Source: Streptomyces coryli
GTDB lineage: Bacteria; Actinomycetota; Actinomycetes; Streptomycetales; Streptomycetaceae
NCBI RefSeq assembly: GCF_011044975.1
Contig: NZ_JAAKZV010000036.1
Span: 1-47,503 of the forward strand
Reading direction: 5' to 3'
DNA length: 47,503 bases
Made by a program: the position numbers and the translations under genes. The number at the start of each line of letters is the position of its first letter. Positions within the stretch are counted from its first letter, which is position 1. Positions 36,836-43,463 of this stretch are shown in pieces. Below the pieces are notes generated by a model, which ran no database searches, had not been told where the DNA came from, and saw only the letters and a list, made by a program, of their open reading frames with translations.

Positions 36836-37654
36836 ATGGCTGTGATCACCGCACCGGAGAACGAGAAGGCCACCGCGAAGTCGGCGCCCGTCCGCGGCAG
36901 GAAGCGCCGGGTCCGGCCCATCGTGCTCAACCTGATAGCGCTCGCCATAGGCATGGTCATCTGGAACGTCGGGGCCGCGCTCGCGATGATCGGAGATCTT
37001 CCGGGACCCGGCGATGTCGCGTCCCGCACCGGCGAGATGATCGGCGACGGTCAGCTCTTCGAGAACGCCTGGGCCAGCTTGCAGCGCGTCTTCCTGGGGT
37101 TCCTGATCGGCAACGCGGTCGCAATACCCATCGGCTTCCTGATGGGCTGGTATCCGGTGGCCCGTGGGCTGCTGGAGCCGTACATCCAGTTCTTCCGCAC
37201 CATCCCGCCACTGGCGATCATCCCGCTCGCCATCGTCCTGATGGGCATCGGCGAGACCCCGAAGGTCTTCGTCATCTTCATCGCGGCCTTCATGGCCACG
37301 GTGGTGGCCGCGTTCCAGGGCGTGACGAACGTCGACCGGACGCTGGTCAACGCGGCCCGGGTGCTGGGCGCCTCGGACGGAGTCATCTTCCTGAAGGTCG
37401 TGATGCCGGCGTCGGTGCCGTTCCTCCTGGTCGGCATGCGGATCGGCCTCGGTTCCGCCTGGGCCACCGTGGTGGCCGCCGAGATCATGGGCGCGGAGTC
37501 GGGCGTGGGCCAGTCGATGATGCAGGCCCAGACGTACTACGACATGCCCACGATCGTCGTGGGCGTCATCACCATCGGCGTGATCGGGCTGGTCATGGAC
37601 CGGCTGCTGCTCCTCGCCGAGCGCCGTCTGACCGGTTGGCAGGAGACCCGATGA
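36836..37654 (+). CDS. ABC permease, SsuC/TauC-like
   Basis: A 272-residue inner-membrane permease of the nitrate/sulfonate/taurine type (BPD_transp_1) with about six helices. Landmarks are [40 protein letters not shown], and the EAA loop [24 protein letters not shown] lies before the ATG at 36836. Its TGA overlaps the ATPase ATG (ATGA). It forms the channel for the SBP/ATPase pair that follows; co-occurrence with a sulfatase suggests import of a sulfonate or organic sulfate. Confidence 0.92.
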
Positions 37655-38478: not shown

Positions 38479-39498
38479 ATGAGCGTGACCCGCCGCGGCT
38501 TTCTGACCGCACTCTCCGCAACCGCTGTGTCACTCCCCGTAATATCCGCGTGCTCCAACTCCAAGACCAGCACGGGCCCGCGTGGTGCGGGCGGTGGCGG
38601 AGGCAAGGCCGACAGCAGCATCAAGTTCGGCTATATCTCCGACTACAACGGCGTCAGCCTGCTCGCCGTGGCCGACAAGCTCGGGCTCTGGAAGAAGCAC
38701 GGGCTCACCGTCGACGTCACGTCGTTCTCCAACGGCCCCATCCAGATCCAGGCGCTGAACGCCGGGGACCTCGACTTCGGCTACATCGGCCCCGGCGCCA
38801 TGTGGCTGCCCGCCTCCGGCAAGTCGAGGATCGTCGCCATCAACACCCTGACCTACGCCGACCGCGTCATCGGCCAGCCGGGCCTCGAGACCATCAAGGA
38901 TCTGCGCGGCAAGCGCATCGGCGTACCGGAAGGGACGTCGGGCGAGATGATCCTGAATCTGGCCCTGCAGGACGCCGGAATGTCGATGGATGACATCAAG
39001 AAGGTCCCCATGGACCCGCCCACCGTCGTCTCCGCCTTCTCCTCCGGCAAGATCGACGGCGCCGGCATCTTCTACCCGCTGATCGGCACCATCAAGGAGA
39101 AGGTGCCGAAGCTCGAAGAGGTGGCGAGCACCCGCGACCTGCCGGACAGCAACTTCCCCACCGCCTTCGTGTCCGGCCAGAAGGTCTCCGACGCCACCGT
39201 CACGAACGTCCTCAAGGTGCTCCAGGAGGCCAACGACTGGCGCGAGCAGAACTACGAGGAATCGATCAAGCTCTCCGCCAAGATGCTCAAGGTCTCCGAG
39301 GACAAGGTGGCGGCCGACGCGAAGAACGTGAAGATCATGTCGACCGACGACCTCGTCGCCAAGACCAAGGACGGCACCGTCGGCGAATGGCTCGACGGCA
39401 TGAGCGACTTCTTCGTCAAGACCGGCCAGCTGAAGGAGAAGCCGAAGGCCACCGACTTCTACACCGCCGATCTCTACACAAAGGCTGCCGGCAAGTGA
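38479..39498 (+). CDS. ABC substrate-binding lipoprotein, SsuA/NMT1-like
   Basis: A 339-residue solute-binding protein. The N-terminus carries a twin-arginine-like RRGFLTALSA and a lipobox ending at C25 (ISAC), so it is probably a Tat-exported lipoprotein. The mature part fits the NMT1/SsuA fold (IKFGYISDYNGVSLLAVADK; IQIQALNAGDLDFGYIG; GKRIGVPEGTSGEMILNLAL). Its TGA overlaps the sulfatase GTG by 4 bp (GTGA), so the two are coupled. It would capture the small sulfated compound for import; the ligand is inferred from the sulfatase neighbour. Confidence 0.92.
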   Translation: MSVTRRGFLTALSATAVSLPVISACSNSKTSTGPRGAGGGGGKADSSIKFGYISDYNGVSLLAVADKLGLWKKHGLTVDVTSFSNGPIQIQALNAGDLDFGYIGPGAMWLPASGKSRIVAINTLTYADRVIGQPGLETIKDLRGKRIGVPEGTSGEMILNLALQDAGMSMDDIKKVPMDPPTVVSAFSSGKIDGAGIFYPLIGTIKEKVPKLEEVASTRDLPDSNFPTAFVSGQKVSDATVTNVLKVLQEANDWREQNYEESIKLSAKMLKVSEDKVAADAKNVKIMSTDDLVAKTKDGTVGEWLDGMSDFFVKTGQLKEKPKATDFYTADLYTKAAGK

Positions 39499-40958
39499 AC
39501 CTGCTCTTCCTCATGACCGACCAGCACCGGGTCGACACCCTGGGCTGTTACGGCAACCCCCACGTCTCCACCCCCCATCTCGACCGGCTCGCCGCCGGCG
39601 GCACGCGCTTCGACCGCTTCTACACTCCGACCGCCATCTGCACGCCTGCCCGGGCCAGTCTGCTCACCGGGCAGGCCCCGTTCCGGCACCGGCTGCTCGC
39701 CAACTACGAGCGGAATGTGGGTTATCTGGAGGACCTGCGCGAGGACGCCTTCACCTTTCCGTCCGCGCTCGCCGAGCGGGATTACCAGCTGGGGCTCATC
39801 GGCAAATGGCACGGCGGCACGCAGCGCAATGCCGCCTCGTACGGCTTCGAGGGCCCGGATCTGCCCGGCTGGCACAATCCGGTGGATCACCCGGACTACC
39901 TGGCGTATCTGGAGGAGAACGACCTCCCGCCGTACCGGATATCCGACCTGGTCCGCGGCACCACCCCGAACGGCAACAAGGGCAATCTGCTCGCCGCCCG
40001 GCTACACCAGCCGGTCGAGGCGACCTTCGAGTACTACCTGGCCACCCGCGCCATCGAGCAGCTGGAGAAGTTCGCCGCGGACGGCCGCCCCTTCTATCTG
40101 GCCACCCACTTCTTCGGCCCGCACCTGCCGTATCTGCTCCCCGACGCGTACTACGACATGTACGACCCGGCCCTGGTCGAGCTGCCGCCGTCCATCGCCG
40201 AGACCTTCGAGGGCAAGCCGCCGGTGCAGCGGAACTACAGCGCGCACTGGACCTTCGACACCATGCCGATCGAGGTCACCCGCAAGCTGATCGCGACGTA
40301 CTGGGGCTATGTCACGCTCATCGACGAGCAGATCGGCCGCATCCTGACCCGGATGGAGGAGCTCGGCCTCGGCGCCGACACGTCGGTCTTCTTCACCGCG
40401 GATCATGGTGAGTTCACCGGGGCGCACCGGCTGCACGACAAGGGTCCGGCGATGTACGAGGACATCTACCGGATTCCCGGCATCGTCCGCGTCCCGGGCC
40501 AGGAGCCCCAGGTCCGCGACGAGTTCGTGTCGCTCACCGACATGACGGCGACCATCCTGGAGCTGGCCGGCTGCGATACGGAGCCCGCCACCGACAGCCG
40601 CTCGCTGCTGCCGCTGGTGTGCGGTGAGCACCCCGAGTGGCCGGCGGAGCTGCTGGCGGAATACCACGGCCACCACTTCCCGTATCCGCAGCGGATGCTC
40701 CGCGAGGAGCGCTACAAGCTGGTGGTCAACCCGGAGTCGGTCAATGAGCTCTACGACCTCGAGGCCGACCCGCACGAGCTCAGCAACCGCTACGAGCACC
40801 CCGAGATGCACCCGGTCCGGCGCCGCATGATGCGCCGCCTCTACGACCTGCTCCGGGACCGCGGCGACAACTTCTACCACTGGATGACACCGATGTACGA
40901 CATCGGCGAACTCGACTACGACCCGACCCTCAGCTCCTTCGAGCCGGAAGGCACCTAG
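39495..40958 (+). CDS. Formylglycine-dependent type I sulfatase
   Basis: A 487-residue sulfatase. The core CTPARASLLTG has C49, expected to be turned into formylglycine by the separate FGE enzyme (CxPxR motif complete). Metal-binding residues lie in LMTDQHRVD near the N-terminus and FTADHGEFTGAH later. No signal peptide, so it should work in the cytoplasm on an imported substrate. The start is GTG 39495 with a 4-bp overlap with the upstream gene. Its stop codon is TAG and coincides with the left end of a MITE-like insert; before the insertion it would have been TAA with the same last residue, so the protein itself seems intact. Family members cleave choline, aryl or sugar sulfates; substrate undetermined. 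Confidence 0.92.
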   Translation: MNLLFLMTDQHRVDTLGCYGNPHVSTPHLDRLAAGGTRFDRFYTPTAICTPARASLLTGQAPFRHRLLANYERNVGYLEDLREDAFTFPSALAERDYQLGLIGKWHGGTQRNAASYGFEGPDLPGWHNPVDHPDYLAYLEENDLPPYRISDLVRGTTPNGNKGNLLAARLHQPVEATFEYYLATRAIEQLEKFAADGRPFYLATHFFGPHLPYLLPDAYYDMYDPALVELPPSIAETFEGKPPVQRNYSAHWTFDTMPIEVTRKLIATYWGYVTLIDEQIGRILTRMEELGLGADTSVFFTADHGEFTGAHRLHDKGPAMYEDIYRIPGIVRVPGQEPQVRDEFVSLTDMTATILELAGCDTEPATDSRSLLPLVCGEHPEWPAELLAEYHGHHFPYPQRMLREERYKLVVNPESVNELYDLEADPHELSNRYEHPEMHPVRRRMMRRLYDLLRDRGDNFYHWMTPMYDIGELDYDPTLSSFEPEGT

Positions 40959-41170
40959 GGCCTCTCTTTCGGATCTTGCCGCGTCCCGCGCCGCCCGGCA
41001 CGCACGCTCGCCGCACGCCGCGACCGGACCGGTGGCTCCGCCACCGGACCGGTCGCAGCGCACGCCGATCGCACGCACCGAACGACGCTCCTGTGCCACA
41101 CCGCAGCCGCATTGCTCACCCGTCGGGCACCACTCCGTGCTCACCGACAAGATCCAAAAGAGAGGCCCTA
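40956..41170. mobile_element. MITE-like element, 211 bp, TA duplication
   Basis: A non-coding insert at 40958-41168 flanked by TA on both sides (40956-40957 and 41169-41170). Its ends are inverted repeats of 24 bp with two mismatches, beginning GGGCCTCTCTTTCGGATCTT on the left and GGGCCTCTCTTTTGGATCTT on the minus strand at the right. The middle holds a 17-bp hairpin (41020-41056, one mismatch, loop TCC). No transposase is encoded. TA target duplication and terminal repeats are as for IS630/Tc1-mariner-type elements, so it was probably moved by a transposase in trans. It separates the sulfatase and GH43 genes. Confidence 0.82.
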
Positions 41171-41174
41171 ATTG

Positions 41175-43463
41175 ATGCGCAGGCTGATGCGGACGGCCGC
41201 TCTCCTCGGCGCGCTGGTGGCACCCCTGGTGCCGGCGCCGGCGGGGGCGGCGGACGAGCAAGGCACGTACGCGAATCCCGTCACCCAGGGGGTGGTCGAC
41301 ACCTTTCCCGACCCGGCGGTGATCAAGGGCAAGGATGGCTACTGGTATGCCTACGGCACCGAGAACCCGGTCTTCCAGTCCCGGGGCGAGAACACCGAGC
41401 GCAAGCTGCCGATTCTCAAGTCCAGGGACATGGCGCACTGGGAGTACGCGGGTGAGGTCTTCACGCCGGAGAGCCAGCCTTCCTGGCATGACAAGTCCCG
41501 GCTCTGGGCCCCGGACGTCCGCTATTCCGGCGGGAAGTACCACCTGAGCTACTCGGTCCCGGGCAAGGACACGGTCGGCGTCGCCACCGCACCCACCCCG
41601 ACCGGGCCCTGGACCGACCAGGGCGCGATGCTGCCGAAGCCGAGCGGCTGCGCCACCGGGAACATCGACCAGGCGACGTTCACGGACGACGACGGCACCG
41701 CGTATCTGTATTGGGGCAGCTACGACACCCTCTGCGTGGCGAAGCTCAACGCCGACCGTACGCGGATCAAGGGCAAGGTCACCGAGATCGCCAAGGGCAG
41801 TCAGATGGAGGGCGGTTACGTCATCCGGCACGGCCGCTACTACTACCTGCTGTACTCCGACGCCGGCTGCTGCGACGGCGCGTACAGCGGCTATCAGATC
41901 AAGGCGGGGCGTTCGACCAGCCCGTTCGGCCCGTTCACCGACGACGAGGGCGTCAAGCTGACCGAGCCGACCAGCAAGGGCGCGATCGTCGCGGGGGCCA
42001 ACGGCAACAAGTGGATCGGACCCGGCCATCACGCCGTACAGACGGACCTGTCGGGGCAGGACTGGCTGCTCTACCACGGCATCTCGGCGGATGATCCTGA
42101 TCTCGACCGCATCCCGGCGCTTCCCGACCGGCAGCTGACCAAGCGCCCGATGCTGATGGACCGGATGGACTGGATCGACGGCTGGCCGGTCATGCGGGCG
42201 GGCGCGGGCCCGTCGGAGGAGCGTGAGCAGGCGCCGGTCGCCGAGTGGGACGCGGGCGGATCGTTCGGCGAGGGGTCGCTGGACGGGTGGCGTTCGGAGG
42301 GGTCTGCCTGGCAGGCGGCCGAGGACAAGGACGCGCACGGCTACGCCGCCGGGGCCTCGTCCGACAAGGCCTCCTTCCTGCTCTCCGACGACTCCGCTCC
42401 GGCCGACGTACGCGCGGAGGCCGATCTGAAGGTCACGTCCGGGTCCGGTGCCGCCGCGCTCGTCCTCAGCCACCGCGGCCGCGGCGACTACACGGCCGCC
42501 TGGCTGGACCGCGGCCGGAAGGCGCTGGTCACCGAGGCGGTGGTCGACGGTCGCAGCCGTGGCACGAAGGCGACGGCGCTGCCGGACGGCTTCGCCTGGG
42601 ACCAGTGGCACACCGTCACCGCCGAGCTGCGCGGCGACCGGCTGACGGCGGAGGTCAGCGAGGACCGGCTGGGCGACCCGGTCGCGCGGCAGGAGCGCGA
42701 GGTCCCCGAGGCGCGCTCCGGCGCGGTAGGGACGGCCGTCCGCGGCGGCTCCGCCGCGGCGGACAACGTGGGGGCGGCGCGGCTGTACACCCCGGTGACC
42801 GAGCGCGTGCCGGAGCCGTCGACGGGACAGCGGCTGCCCGGATACAGCGACGAATTCACCGGCTCGGGGCAGCCGGGCGAGGACTGGTCCTGGGTGCGCG
42901 GCCCGGCCGCCGGCGCCGACATCGGCGACGGCGGGCTGACCTGGCCGACCCAGGGCGGCGCCCTGGGGCTCGACAAGAACACCGCGCCGGTGCTCACCCG
43001 CGCCGCGCCCAAGGGCGACTACACGGTGGAGACCAAGCTCCACTTCGCCCCTGACCAGGCCGGTCAGCAGGCGGGCCTGATCCTCTACGGCGGCGACGAC
43101 CGGTTCTTCAAGAACGTGCACTCGGTCGCGGCCTACCGCCACCACGCCGGGCAGGTCCTGCACCGGAGCGAGTTCGGCAAGGAGGGGCCGCGCCCCACCA
43201 CCGACCCGCCGCAGCCGGTGGCCCAGGCGCCGATCTACGGCGGGCCGACGGCCGACACCATGTGGCTGAAGCTGCAGAAGCGCACCGATGAGGCGAACGG
43301 CGAGACCGAGGTCCGCGCCGCCACCAGCCGGGACGGGAAGCACTGGGTGTGGAACGGGGTGTGGACGCTGCCCGGCACCGAGGAGCTGAAGCTCGGCCTG
43401 GTGTCCATGGGCGCGGAGGGTGCCGACGCGCGGTTCGCGTACGTGCGGACGTACGTGGACTGA
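41175..43463 (+). CDS. Secreted GH43 glycoside hydrolase with C-terminal beta-sandwich
   Basis: A 762-residue exported enzyme. It has a signal peptide (about 1-25, ending AGA). A five-bladed GH43 domain spans about 30-340, with likely catalytic base D46 (TFPDPAVIK), pKa modulator D165 (NIDQATF) and acid E212 (QMEGGYV). A beta-rich middle follows, then a concanavalin-like sandwich at about 555-760 (YSDEFTGSGQPGEDWSWVRG; RFAYVRTYVD), common in GH43 xylosidases and arabinofuranosidases. An in-frame TTG at 41172 is possible but ATG is preferred; GAGAGG from the right end of the MITE gives a ribosome site. It would cut an arabinan, xylan or related sugar chain outside the cell. Confidence 0.9.
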   Translation: MRRLMRTAALLGALVAPLVPAPAGAADEQGTYANPVTQGVVDTFPDPAVIKGKDGYWYAYGTENPVFQSRGENTERKLPILKSRDMAHWEYAGEVFTPESQPSWHDKSRLWAPDVRYSGGKYHLSYSVPGKDTVGVATAPTPTGPWTDQGAMLPKPSGCATGNIDQATFTDDDGTAYLYWGSYDTLCVAKLNADRTRIKGKVTEIAKGSQMEGGYVIRHGRYYYLLYSDAGCCDGAYSGYQIKAGRSTSPFGPFTDDEGVKLTEPTSKGAIVAGANGNKWIGPGHHAVQTDLSGQDWLLYHGISADDPDLDRIPALPDRQLTKRPMLMDRMDWIDGWPVMRAGAGPSEEREQAPVAEWDAGGSFGEGSLDGWRSEGSAWQAAEDKDAHGYAAGASSDKASFLLSDDSAPADVRAEADLKVTSGSGAAALVLSHRGRGDYTAAWLDRGRKALVTEAVVDGRSRGTKATALPDGFAWDQWHTVTAELRGDRLTAEVSEDRLGDPVARQEREVPEARSGAVGTAVRGGSAAADNVGAARLYTPVTERVPEPSTGQRLPGYSDEFTGSGQPGEDWSWVRGPAAGADIGDGGLTWPTQGGALGLDKNTAPVLTRAAPKGDYTVETKLHFAPDQAGQQAGLILYGGDDRFFKNVHSVAAYRHHAGQVLHRSEFGKEGPRPTTDPPQPVAQAPIYGGPTADTMWLKLQKRTDEANGETEVRAATSRDGKHWVWNGVWTLPGTEELKLGLVSMGAEGADARFAYVRTYVD

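Follow-up and report, generated by a model that had tools for sequence, protein, structure and literature searches.

A 211-bp element at positions 40958-41168 of a 47,503-nucleotide stretch of Streptomyces coryli (contig NZ_JAAKZV010000036.1; "the window" hereafter means this whole stretch) sits exactly in the stop codon of a sulfatase gene, with TA on both sides, and separates this gene from a downstream glycoside hydrolase gene of family GH43, its neighbour, both being genes of sugar degradation. By its sequence it is a miniature inverted-repeat transposable element (MITE), since it is short, carries no transposase open reading frame (ORF) and ends in terminal inverted repeats. We consider it quite probable that a transposase acting in trans, most probably a DDE enzyme of the IS5 type, brought the element to the TA within the sulfatase stop, displacing the GH43 gene and hiding the replacement ribosome site. 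The element appears to belong to a large family of small, folded actinobacterial elements that has apparently not been described before. MITEs as such are known; what is new here is a structured core found under many different ends, together with a bias of the family towards stop codons.

The Element and Its Insertion Site

The two terminal repeats (21 bp each) are reverse complements with one mismatch, and beyond these two ends the 47.5-kb window holds no further copy of the 21-bp end at five or fewer mismatches. The sulfatase stop TAG (40956-40958) consists of the left TA and the first G of the element. Joining the flanks without the element and one TA yields ACC TAA TTG ATG (longer form ACCTAATTGATG). 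A first-pass annotation, made from the DNA letters, had proposed a non-autonomous element with terminal inverted repeats in the TA of a stop codon and had read the joined flanks in the same way; both proposals are borne out, the repeats agreeing at 20 of 21 positions between TA flanks, and so is its statement that the sulfatase protein was left unchanged, as the terminal G of the element itself preserves the stop. The old stop may have been TAA or TAG, since a 4-bp duplication would require a mutation in one of the flanks. The insert-free junction of the host is predicted to read TAATTGATG or TAGTTGATG. The GH43 gene starts with ATG at 41175 (an in-frame TTG lies at 41172); as also proposed, it has been moved away from a formerly tight junction, its ATG now standing 216 nt from the sulfatase TAG.

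The same gene pair was traced in relatives. A search with the GH43 protein (E <=1e-100) matched 23 of 392 Streptomyces genomes and a search with the sulfatase 42 of 394 genomes of the family, of which 30 places were fetched; both genes were present in 32 fetched loci, representing 30 genomes, and the remaining fetched sulfatase loci had no GH43 match within the stretch. In 27 of the 30 genomes GH43 begins either 4 bp inside the stop of the sulfatase gene (ATGA/GTGA) or right behind it (TAGATG/TAGGTG), the exceptions being L085 and L088, with longer gaps, and L062, which was not resolved. Element ends were found in none of the 32 two-gene loci, which answers the suggested check for relatives without the insert. 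The sequence before the stop is similar to that of the window, e.g., GAGCTCCTTCGAGCCGGAAGGGACCGCG-TAG-ATG in L070. The relatives share about 80-92% identity with the window in the sulfatase and 58-75% in GH43, so that none of those compared counts as close.

Recurrence of the Ends and Target Sites

The exact end occurs in 27 genome-contig stretches, 26 of them titled Streptomyces and one Shimia (L011), and the exact end preceded by TA in 4 of 392 Streptomyces genomes. A relaxed end pattern, TAGGGYCTNTCNTTYGGATC, was present in 114 of 295 Streptomyces genomes, with no occurrence of a control pattern among the matches listed; genome G214 alone has 46 forward and 48 reverse ends at two or fewer mismatches. 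Phage records gave no match to the element, and four plasmid records, all from Streptomyces, match parts of it. Paired ends were found at many unrelated sites, mainly in Streptomyces, when the recurrence of the ends was checked as the first-pass annotation had advised. That no insertion took place, and that an ordinary intergenic hairpin is flanked by TA by chance, would agree with the empty site being seen in other species only; it is contradicted by the insert-free junctions of the relatives and by the paired recurrence of the 21-bp ends with TA, and is extremely unlikely.

Several single copies deserve mention. The exact end in the contig titled Shimia aestuarii (L011, 5209-5229) stands alone, without TA or partner, and may reflect chance or contamination. 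In two Streptomyces species an exact end without TA flank or partner lies in shared flanks (L018, 2811-2831; L019, 7348-7368), possibly a decayed common copy. On a Streptomyces plasmid (L114, 2501-2680) the right end of the element is adjoined by a second end-like sequence in the opposite direction, and L197 (genome G213) has two 194-bp copies (870-1063 and 2620-2813), 1.75 kb apart and both at predicted stops (reconstructed TAA).

From 113 end pairs in the fetched loci, 93 distinct paired-end elements were left after removal of duplicates. TA stands on both sides in 63 of the 93, as in the window, and CTAG on both sides in 52; unequal flanks comprise CTAG/CTAA (three, the state of the window), CTAG/CTAT (two) and TTAG/CTAG (two). 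The elements thus display the YTAR/CTAG target preference of the IS5 family; 24 listed targets of IS5 in Escherichia coli include CTAG 15 times and CTAA and TTAG three times each (PMC5493358). The unequal flanks agree better with a 2-bp duplication of TA, the G being the element's, than with a 4-bp duplication, although later mutation is possible.

Insertion into Stop Codons

The terminal TAG is the exact stop of the adjacent predicted coding sequence (CDS) in 64 of the 93 elements, and reconstruction of the pre-insertion codon gives TAG or TAA for 62 of these 64 (TAC in L045, TAT in L114); among elements flanked by 1 kb or more on each side, 56 of 78 use a stop. Controls from the same loci, with genes called by the same script of our own, gave stops at 15 of 82 other CTAG sites, 14 of 66 CTAG sites outside gene interiors and 71 of 4871 TA sites overall. 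Element-free control loci, taken from the sulfatase region (many of them orthologous) together with the window, have a stop at 12 of 26 CTAG sites. Three genes annotated by PGAP end in an element TAG, all on plasmids (L114, L206, L213), and in a second set with different ends 18 of 36 elements lie at a predicted stop. Stop-codon insertion is therefore frequent in the element family, and the sulfatase-GH43 case is not unique. With ends that read G...C, the element always turns the TA upstream of it into TAG, and an insertion in TAA or TAG therefore spares the upstream protein. The cause of the bias may lie in the rarity of TA and CTAG in high-GC genomes, where stops would be among the few harmless places.

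By gene context, 42 of the 93 elements are convergent, 34 codirectional, six divergent, ten at edges and one inside an ORF, compared with 47 convergent, 219 codirectional and 76 divergent gene pairs in the background of the same loci. This excess at convergent gene ends would suit a hairpin that is useful at the 3' end, as a transcription end or messenger stabilizer, with the family kept there by selection. However, the strand of the core relative to the gene is random (19 against 19), the window has no U-tract terminator pattern, and elements that avoid promoters and genes would end up distributed in the same way, which makes selection of this kind quite unlikely. Where the genes are codirectional and the element holds the stop, the next start is by far closest in the window (3 nt), followed by L254 (41 nt); the splitting of a tight gene pair is thus an exception in the family, since the other distances are at least 41 nt. 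In the codirectional L262 a predicted start lies inside the element and the upstream stop is 544 nt off.

RNA Fold and the Ribosome Site of GH43

The RNA of the element is predicted to fold at -114.9 kcal/mol (z -8.0; 0 of 200 shuffles equally stable). The end repeats account for much of this stability: without them the interior reaches only z -2.3, with 4 of 200 shuffles equally stable. The 17-bp hairpin that had been noticed between the genes exists, but it has 16 of 17 pairs and forms the tip of a larger fold. The inferred native ribosome-binding sequence of GH43, GGAAGG, remains in the 3' end of the sulfatase gene, and GCCGGAAGG stands just 5' of the junction in several relatives (e.g., L064, L067, L070, L071, L075). 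A new ribosome site, GAGAGG, had been credited to the insert: the element's end does supply this sequence, but in the read-through RNA it is predicted to be fully paired, with an unpaired probability of 0.00 against 0.34 for the native GGAAGG in the joined flanks. Lying in the 3' repeat and paired in this way, GAGAGG should be masked, so the claim appears to need the opposite sign, the supplied sequence being predicted to be hidden. For duplexes with the anti-Shine-Dalgarno sequence, the predicted energy is -8.4 at the element's GAGAGG and -6.9 at the native GGAAGG.

When positions 40940-40970, the ribosome footprint that we assumed, are blocked, the mean predicted accessibility of GAGAGG rises from 0.00 to 0.25. 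Coupling might on this basis persist in a re-wired form, the base of the stem joining the sulfatase stop to the GH43 start and terminating ribosomes melting the masking arm. The pairing of TAG with CTA at the stem base speaks for such an arrangement, as do this rise in accessibility and the GH43 ORF, which is still full-length with a good domain match; against it, the footprint is our own choice, the model is purely thermodynamic and the region stays mostly paired, and we judge it unlikely.

The reading that we prefer, insertion with displacement of GH43 and masking of its replacement site, would proceed as follows. An IS5-type DDE transposase, acting in trans, would have placed the element into the TA of the sulfatase stop. 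By its geometry the insert pushes GH43 off its native ribosome site, and by predicted pairing it would bury the replacement in the repeat stem. Translation of GH43 from a read-through messenger would then likely be lower and no longer normally coupled, which would uncouple GH43 from the sulfatase, unless RNase III cleaves the stem or ribosomes terminating at TAG open it; such ribosomes would probably cover the arm that masks GAGAGG.

Search for the Transposase

Loci with transposase domains PF13359, PF01609 and PF13358 were collected in five genomes, and the protein of L160 was searched in 241 genomes, with 30 loci fetched. Among the places listed in 10 genomes, no inverted end pair of insertion sequence (IS) length was seen that could mark an autonomous partner, but only short pairs by eye. 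The transposase loci did not furnish an exact partner either, their ends being similar but not identical to those of the window element. Three IS5-type ISs stand out: L145, with a spacing of 889 bp, has ends (CTAGGTCGTGTCCGCAAAGTC) equal to those of the core-bearing MITE L211; L151 has ends CTAGGGAGTGTCTTTCCGATCAT, and relatives of its protein on plasmids are annotated as IS5 family transposase; L160 has ends CTAGGGTCCGTCTTCAAACGGATCCTGCC and two overlapping frames. Of 33 loci scanned for ends, 11 had no end pair and several others had pairs not of IS5 type; eight have an end scoring 14.5 against the ends of the element family and share GGATCTTGCC with the window or nearly so, whereas random TAGGG sequences (n = 2000) gave a 99th percentile of 12.0 and a maximum of 16.0.

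A transposase of the TA-targeting IS630 type, rather than IS5, would suit the TA duplication, which fits IS630/Tc1. The ends of the core-bearing elements L204 and L206 start with CTAGTGC, as do IS630-type ISs (e.g., L190). The window ends (GGGCCTCTCTTTCGGATCTTGCC), however, resemble IS5-type ends (GGGTCCGTCTTCAAACGGATCTTGCC; L306, L310, L317), and the CTAG/CTAA targets match those given for IS5 in PMC5493358; an IS630 origin is distinctly doubtful. In L116, at about 2460-2570, a CTAG with an L160-type IS5 end immediately adjoins a truncated L113-type core. The IS has apparently inserted into a core-bearing MITE, and such an arrangement offers a possible route of end exchange.

Several points weigh against insertion by an IS5-type transposase with masking of the replacement site. 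The stop bias may owe much to the choice of target, because CTAG sites are so often stops in the element-free loci; the stop counts rest on genes predicted by our own script, and the 93 elements are not independent, as they come from few genomes (20-odd from G214, 15 from G136). The multiple copies were counted in genomes other than that of the host, e.g., G214, and the insert-free junctions come from other species only, at the identities given above. No IS with the same ends was found among the loci searched, and the closest IS5-type end stays below the random maximum. IS5 itself duplicates 4 bp, while the flanks of the element appear to suit 2 bp better. Finally, no sigma-70 promoter or U-tract terminator pattern was seen in the window, and the opening by ribosomes yields a predicted accessibility of only 0.25.

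A Structured Core under Many Ends

Part of the interior of the element (query bases 32-137) matches at 74.5% an element of S. globosus with wholly different ends (L113), and plasmid searches added more copies of this core of roughly 100 nt. Every core carries GGCACGCAC on one arm and GCACGCACC on the other, together with 2x2 internal loops and an apical hairpin. Of 105 elements, 79 have the motif pair (without mismatch in the window), versus 13 of 315 mononucleotide shuffles; many elements lacking it are short forms of 80-100 bp. In an alignment of 13 sequences with 29 pairs, from which the structure itself was derived, 92.8% of cells are paired and double changes occur in 14 pairs (41 cells), compared with 7.4 pairs and 14.5 cells in shuffles (0 of 500 as high) and at most five pairs and nine cells in slid versions. 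The 20-sequence alignment A2, made of 18 of 22 chosen cores plus L204 and L206, has double changes in 5 of 17 pairs. Left out of alignment A1 were L057 (resemblance in the apical hairpin only), L212-L214 (partial matches) and L116 (truncated by the IS end). The apical stem varies in sequence among family members and yet stays paired: in 72 distinct cores (L295, L298, L300 and L304 omitted) the central hairpin has at least five pairs in 56 (28% in shuffles) and a TCC loop in 50, with 34 different arm pairs.

At E <=0.01, covariance model R1 found matches in 63 of 256 class genomes. Chance alone would give about 2-3; no more than 15 candidates were scored in each genome, and the E-values are rough. 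Of the 63 genomes, 41 lay outside the earlier Streptomyces and family draws, and many of these have a size of 3-6 Mb, which suggests that the core extends to other genera. The fetched matches include CTAG-flanked elements with ends unlike those of the window (L293, L299, L301, L303, L304), and at least 10 end types were distinguished by eye among 36 core-bearing elements with ends (L295 omitted; weak end pairs in L047, L207, L281, L283, L288 and L297). Rfam 15 gave no match at gathering score in the window, and at E <=1 in seven related loci it gave nothing but a weak match to a microRNA family and a weak match to a small RNA. On the minus strand of the core (e.g., L294, L289, L006) a purine-rich, Shine-Dalgarno-like run (AAGGCGGAGGAGGG) is followed by a hairpin and then by DDNAA-like codons. 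A one-strand signal of 3' untranslated regions was rejected as the principal interpretation of the core, its strand being the same as that of the gene in 19 cases and opposite in 19. The combination of at least 10 end types, some IS5-like and some IS630-like, with conserved motifs and TCC loop and with stems rewritten but paired might mean, though we think this less likely than not, that the core is a functional nucleic-acid module carried by several unrelated transposase systems across the Actinomycetes, and that it spreads almost harmlessly thanks to ends which restore stop codons.

Genes around the Insertion

The ORFs upstream of the sulfatase match ROK, an ABC permease, an ABC ATPase and an NMT1-like binding protein in Pfam, and the gene 3' of GH43 matches Oxidored_FMN. 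Composition points to an alternative start of the sulfatase at 39495. By predicted starts, two neighbouring operon junctions also overlap by 4 bp (ATPase/permease, 37651-37654; binding protein/sulfatase, 39495-39498), and the insert therefore breaks a series of tight junctions.

Table 1. Features of the sulfatase-GH43 region in the window.
Feature	Position	Strand	Basis or remark
Sulfatase CDS	39387-40958	+	Longest ORF; Pfam Sulfatase, E 1.3e-49, also SGSH_C
GGAAGG, native GH43 ribosome-binding sequence (inferred)	40946-40951	+	In sulfatase 3' end, now displaced
Left TA (target duplication)	40956-40957	.	Sequence
Left terminal inverted repeat, GGGCCTCTCTTTCGGATCTTG	40958-40978	+	End comparison
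Structured core	40988-41088	+	60.3 bits to covariance model R1; window one of the 20 building sequences
5' conserved motif, GGCACGCAC	40997-41005	+	Element alignment
Apical hairpin	41020-41036 / 41040-41056	+	16/17 pairs, one A-A mismatch, TCC loop
3' conserved motif, GCACGCACC	41071-41079	+	Element alignment
Right terminal inverted repeat	41148-41168	-	20/21 identical to left repeat
GAGAGG, ribosome-site-like	41160-41165	+	In 3' repeat; predicted to pair with CCTCTC of 5' arm
Right TA	41169-41170	.	Sequence
GH43 glycoside hydrolase CDS	41175-43463	+	Full-length open; Pfam Glyco_hydro_43, E 1.7e-55

Comparison with Known Systems

A mobile element of this kind can enter dense, high-GC operons without breaking proteins: stop codons often contain the TA that it targets, and a new stop arises with the first base of the element. 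At the sulfatase-GH43 junction nature provides a testable example of coupled genes set apart by an insert which brings in a ribosome site and, by prediction, also conceals it. The structured repeat is widespread in the Actinomycetes, and its shared core under differing ends raises the role of the core and the exchange of ends as questions.

No description of the element family was found in the titles and abstract openings returned by searches of open-licence literature. ERIC, Correia/NEMIS and similar intergenic palindromic MITEs resemble the window element in being imperfect palindromes of 100-300 bp with terminal repeats, in lying in transcribed gaps and in inserting at 3' ends of genes. ERIC and Correia elements duplicate TA. 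The window family differs from them in being actinobacterial and of high GC, with one core under many ends and a stop supplied by the ends. A review describes Correia and ERIC transcripts as targets of RNase III cleavage or as influencing decay, and the Chunjie MITE of Geobacter uraniireducens, of about 235 bp, as an insertion in an operon (PMC10969869); by that description Chunjie and the window element are both MITEs in an operon, with other sequences and other hosts. The IS5-family ISs of Streptomyces (IS427/IS5-type groups) share CTAG-type targets and GGG...-TGTC-like ends with the window element, which in contrast has no transposase gene and for whose ends no identical IS was found. The IS630-type ISs of Streptomyces (DDE_3) target TA and have CTAGTGC ends like some core-bearing elements, but these ends differ from those of the window element.

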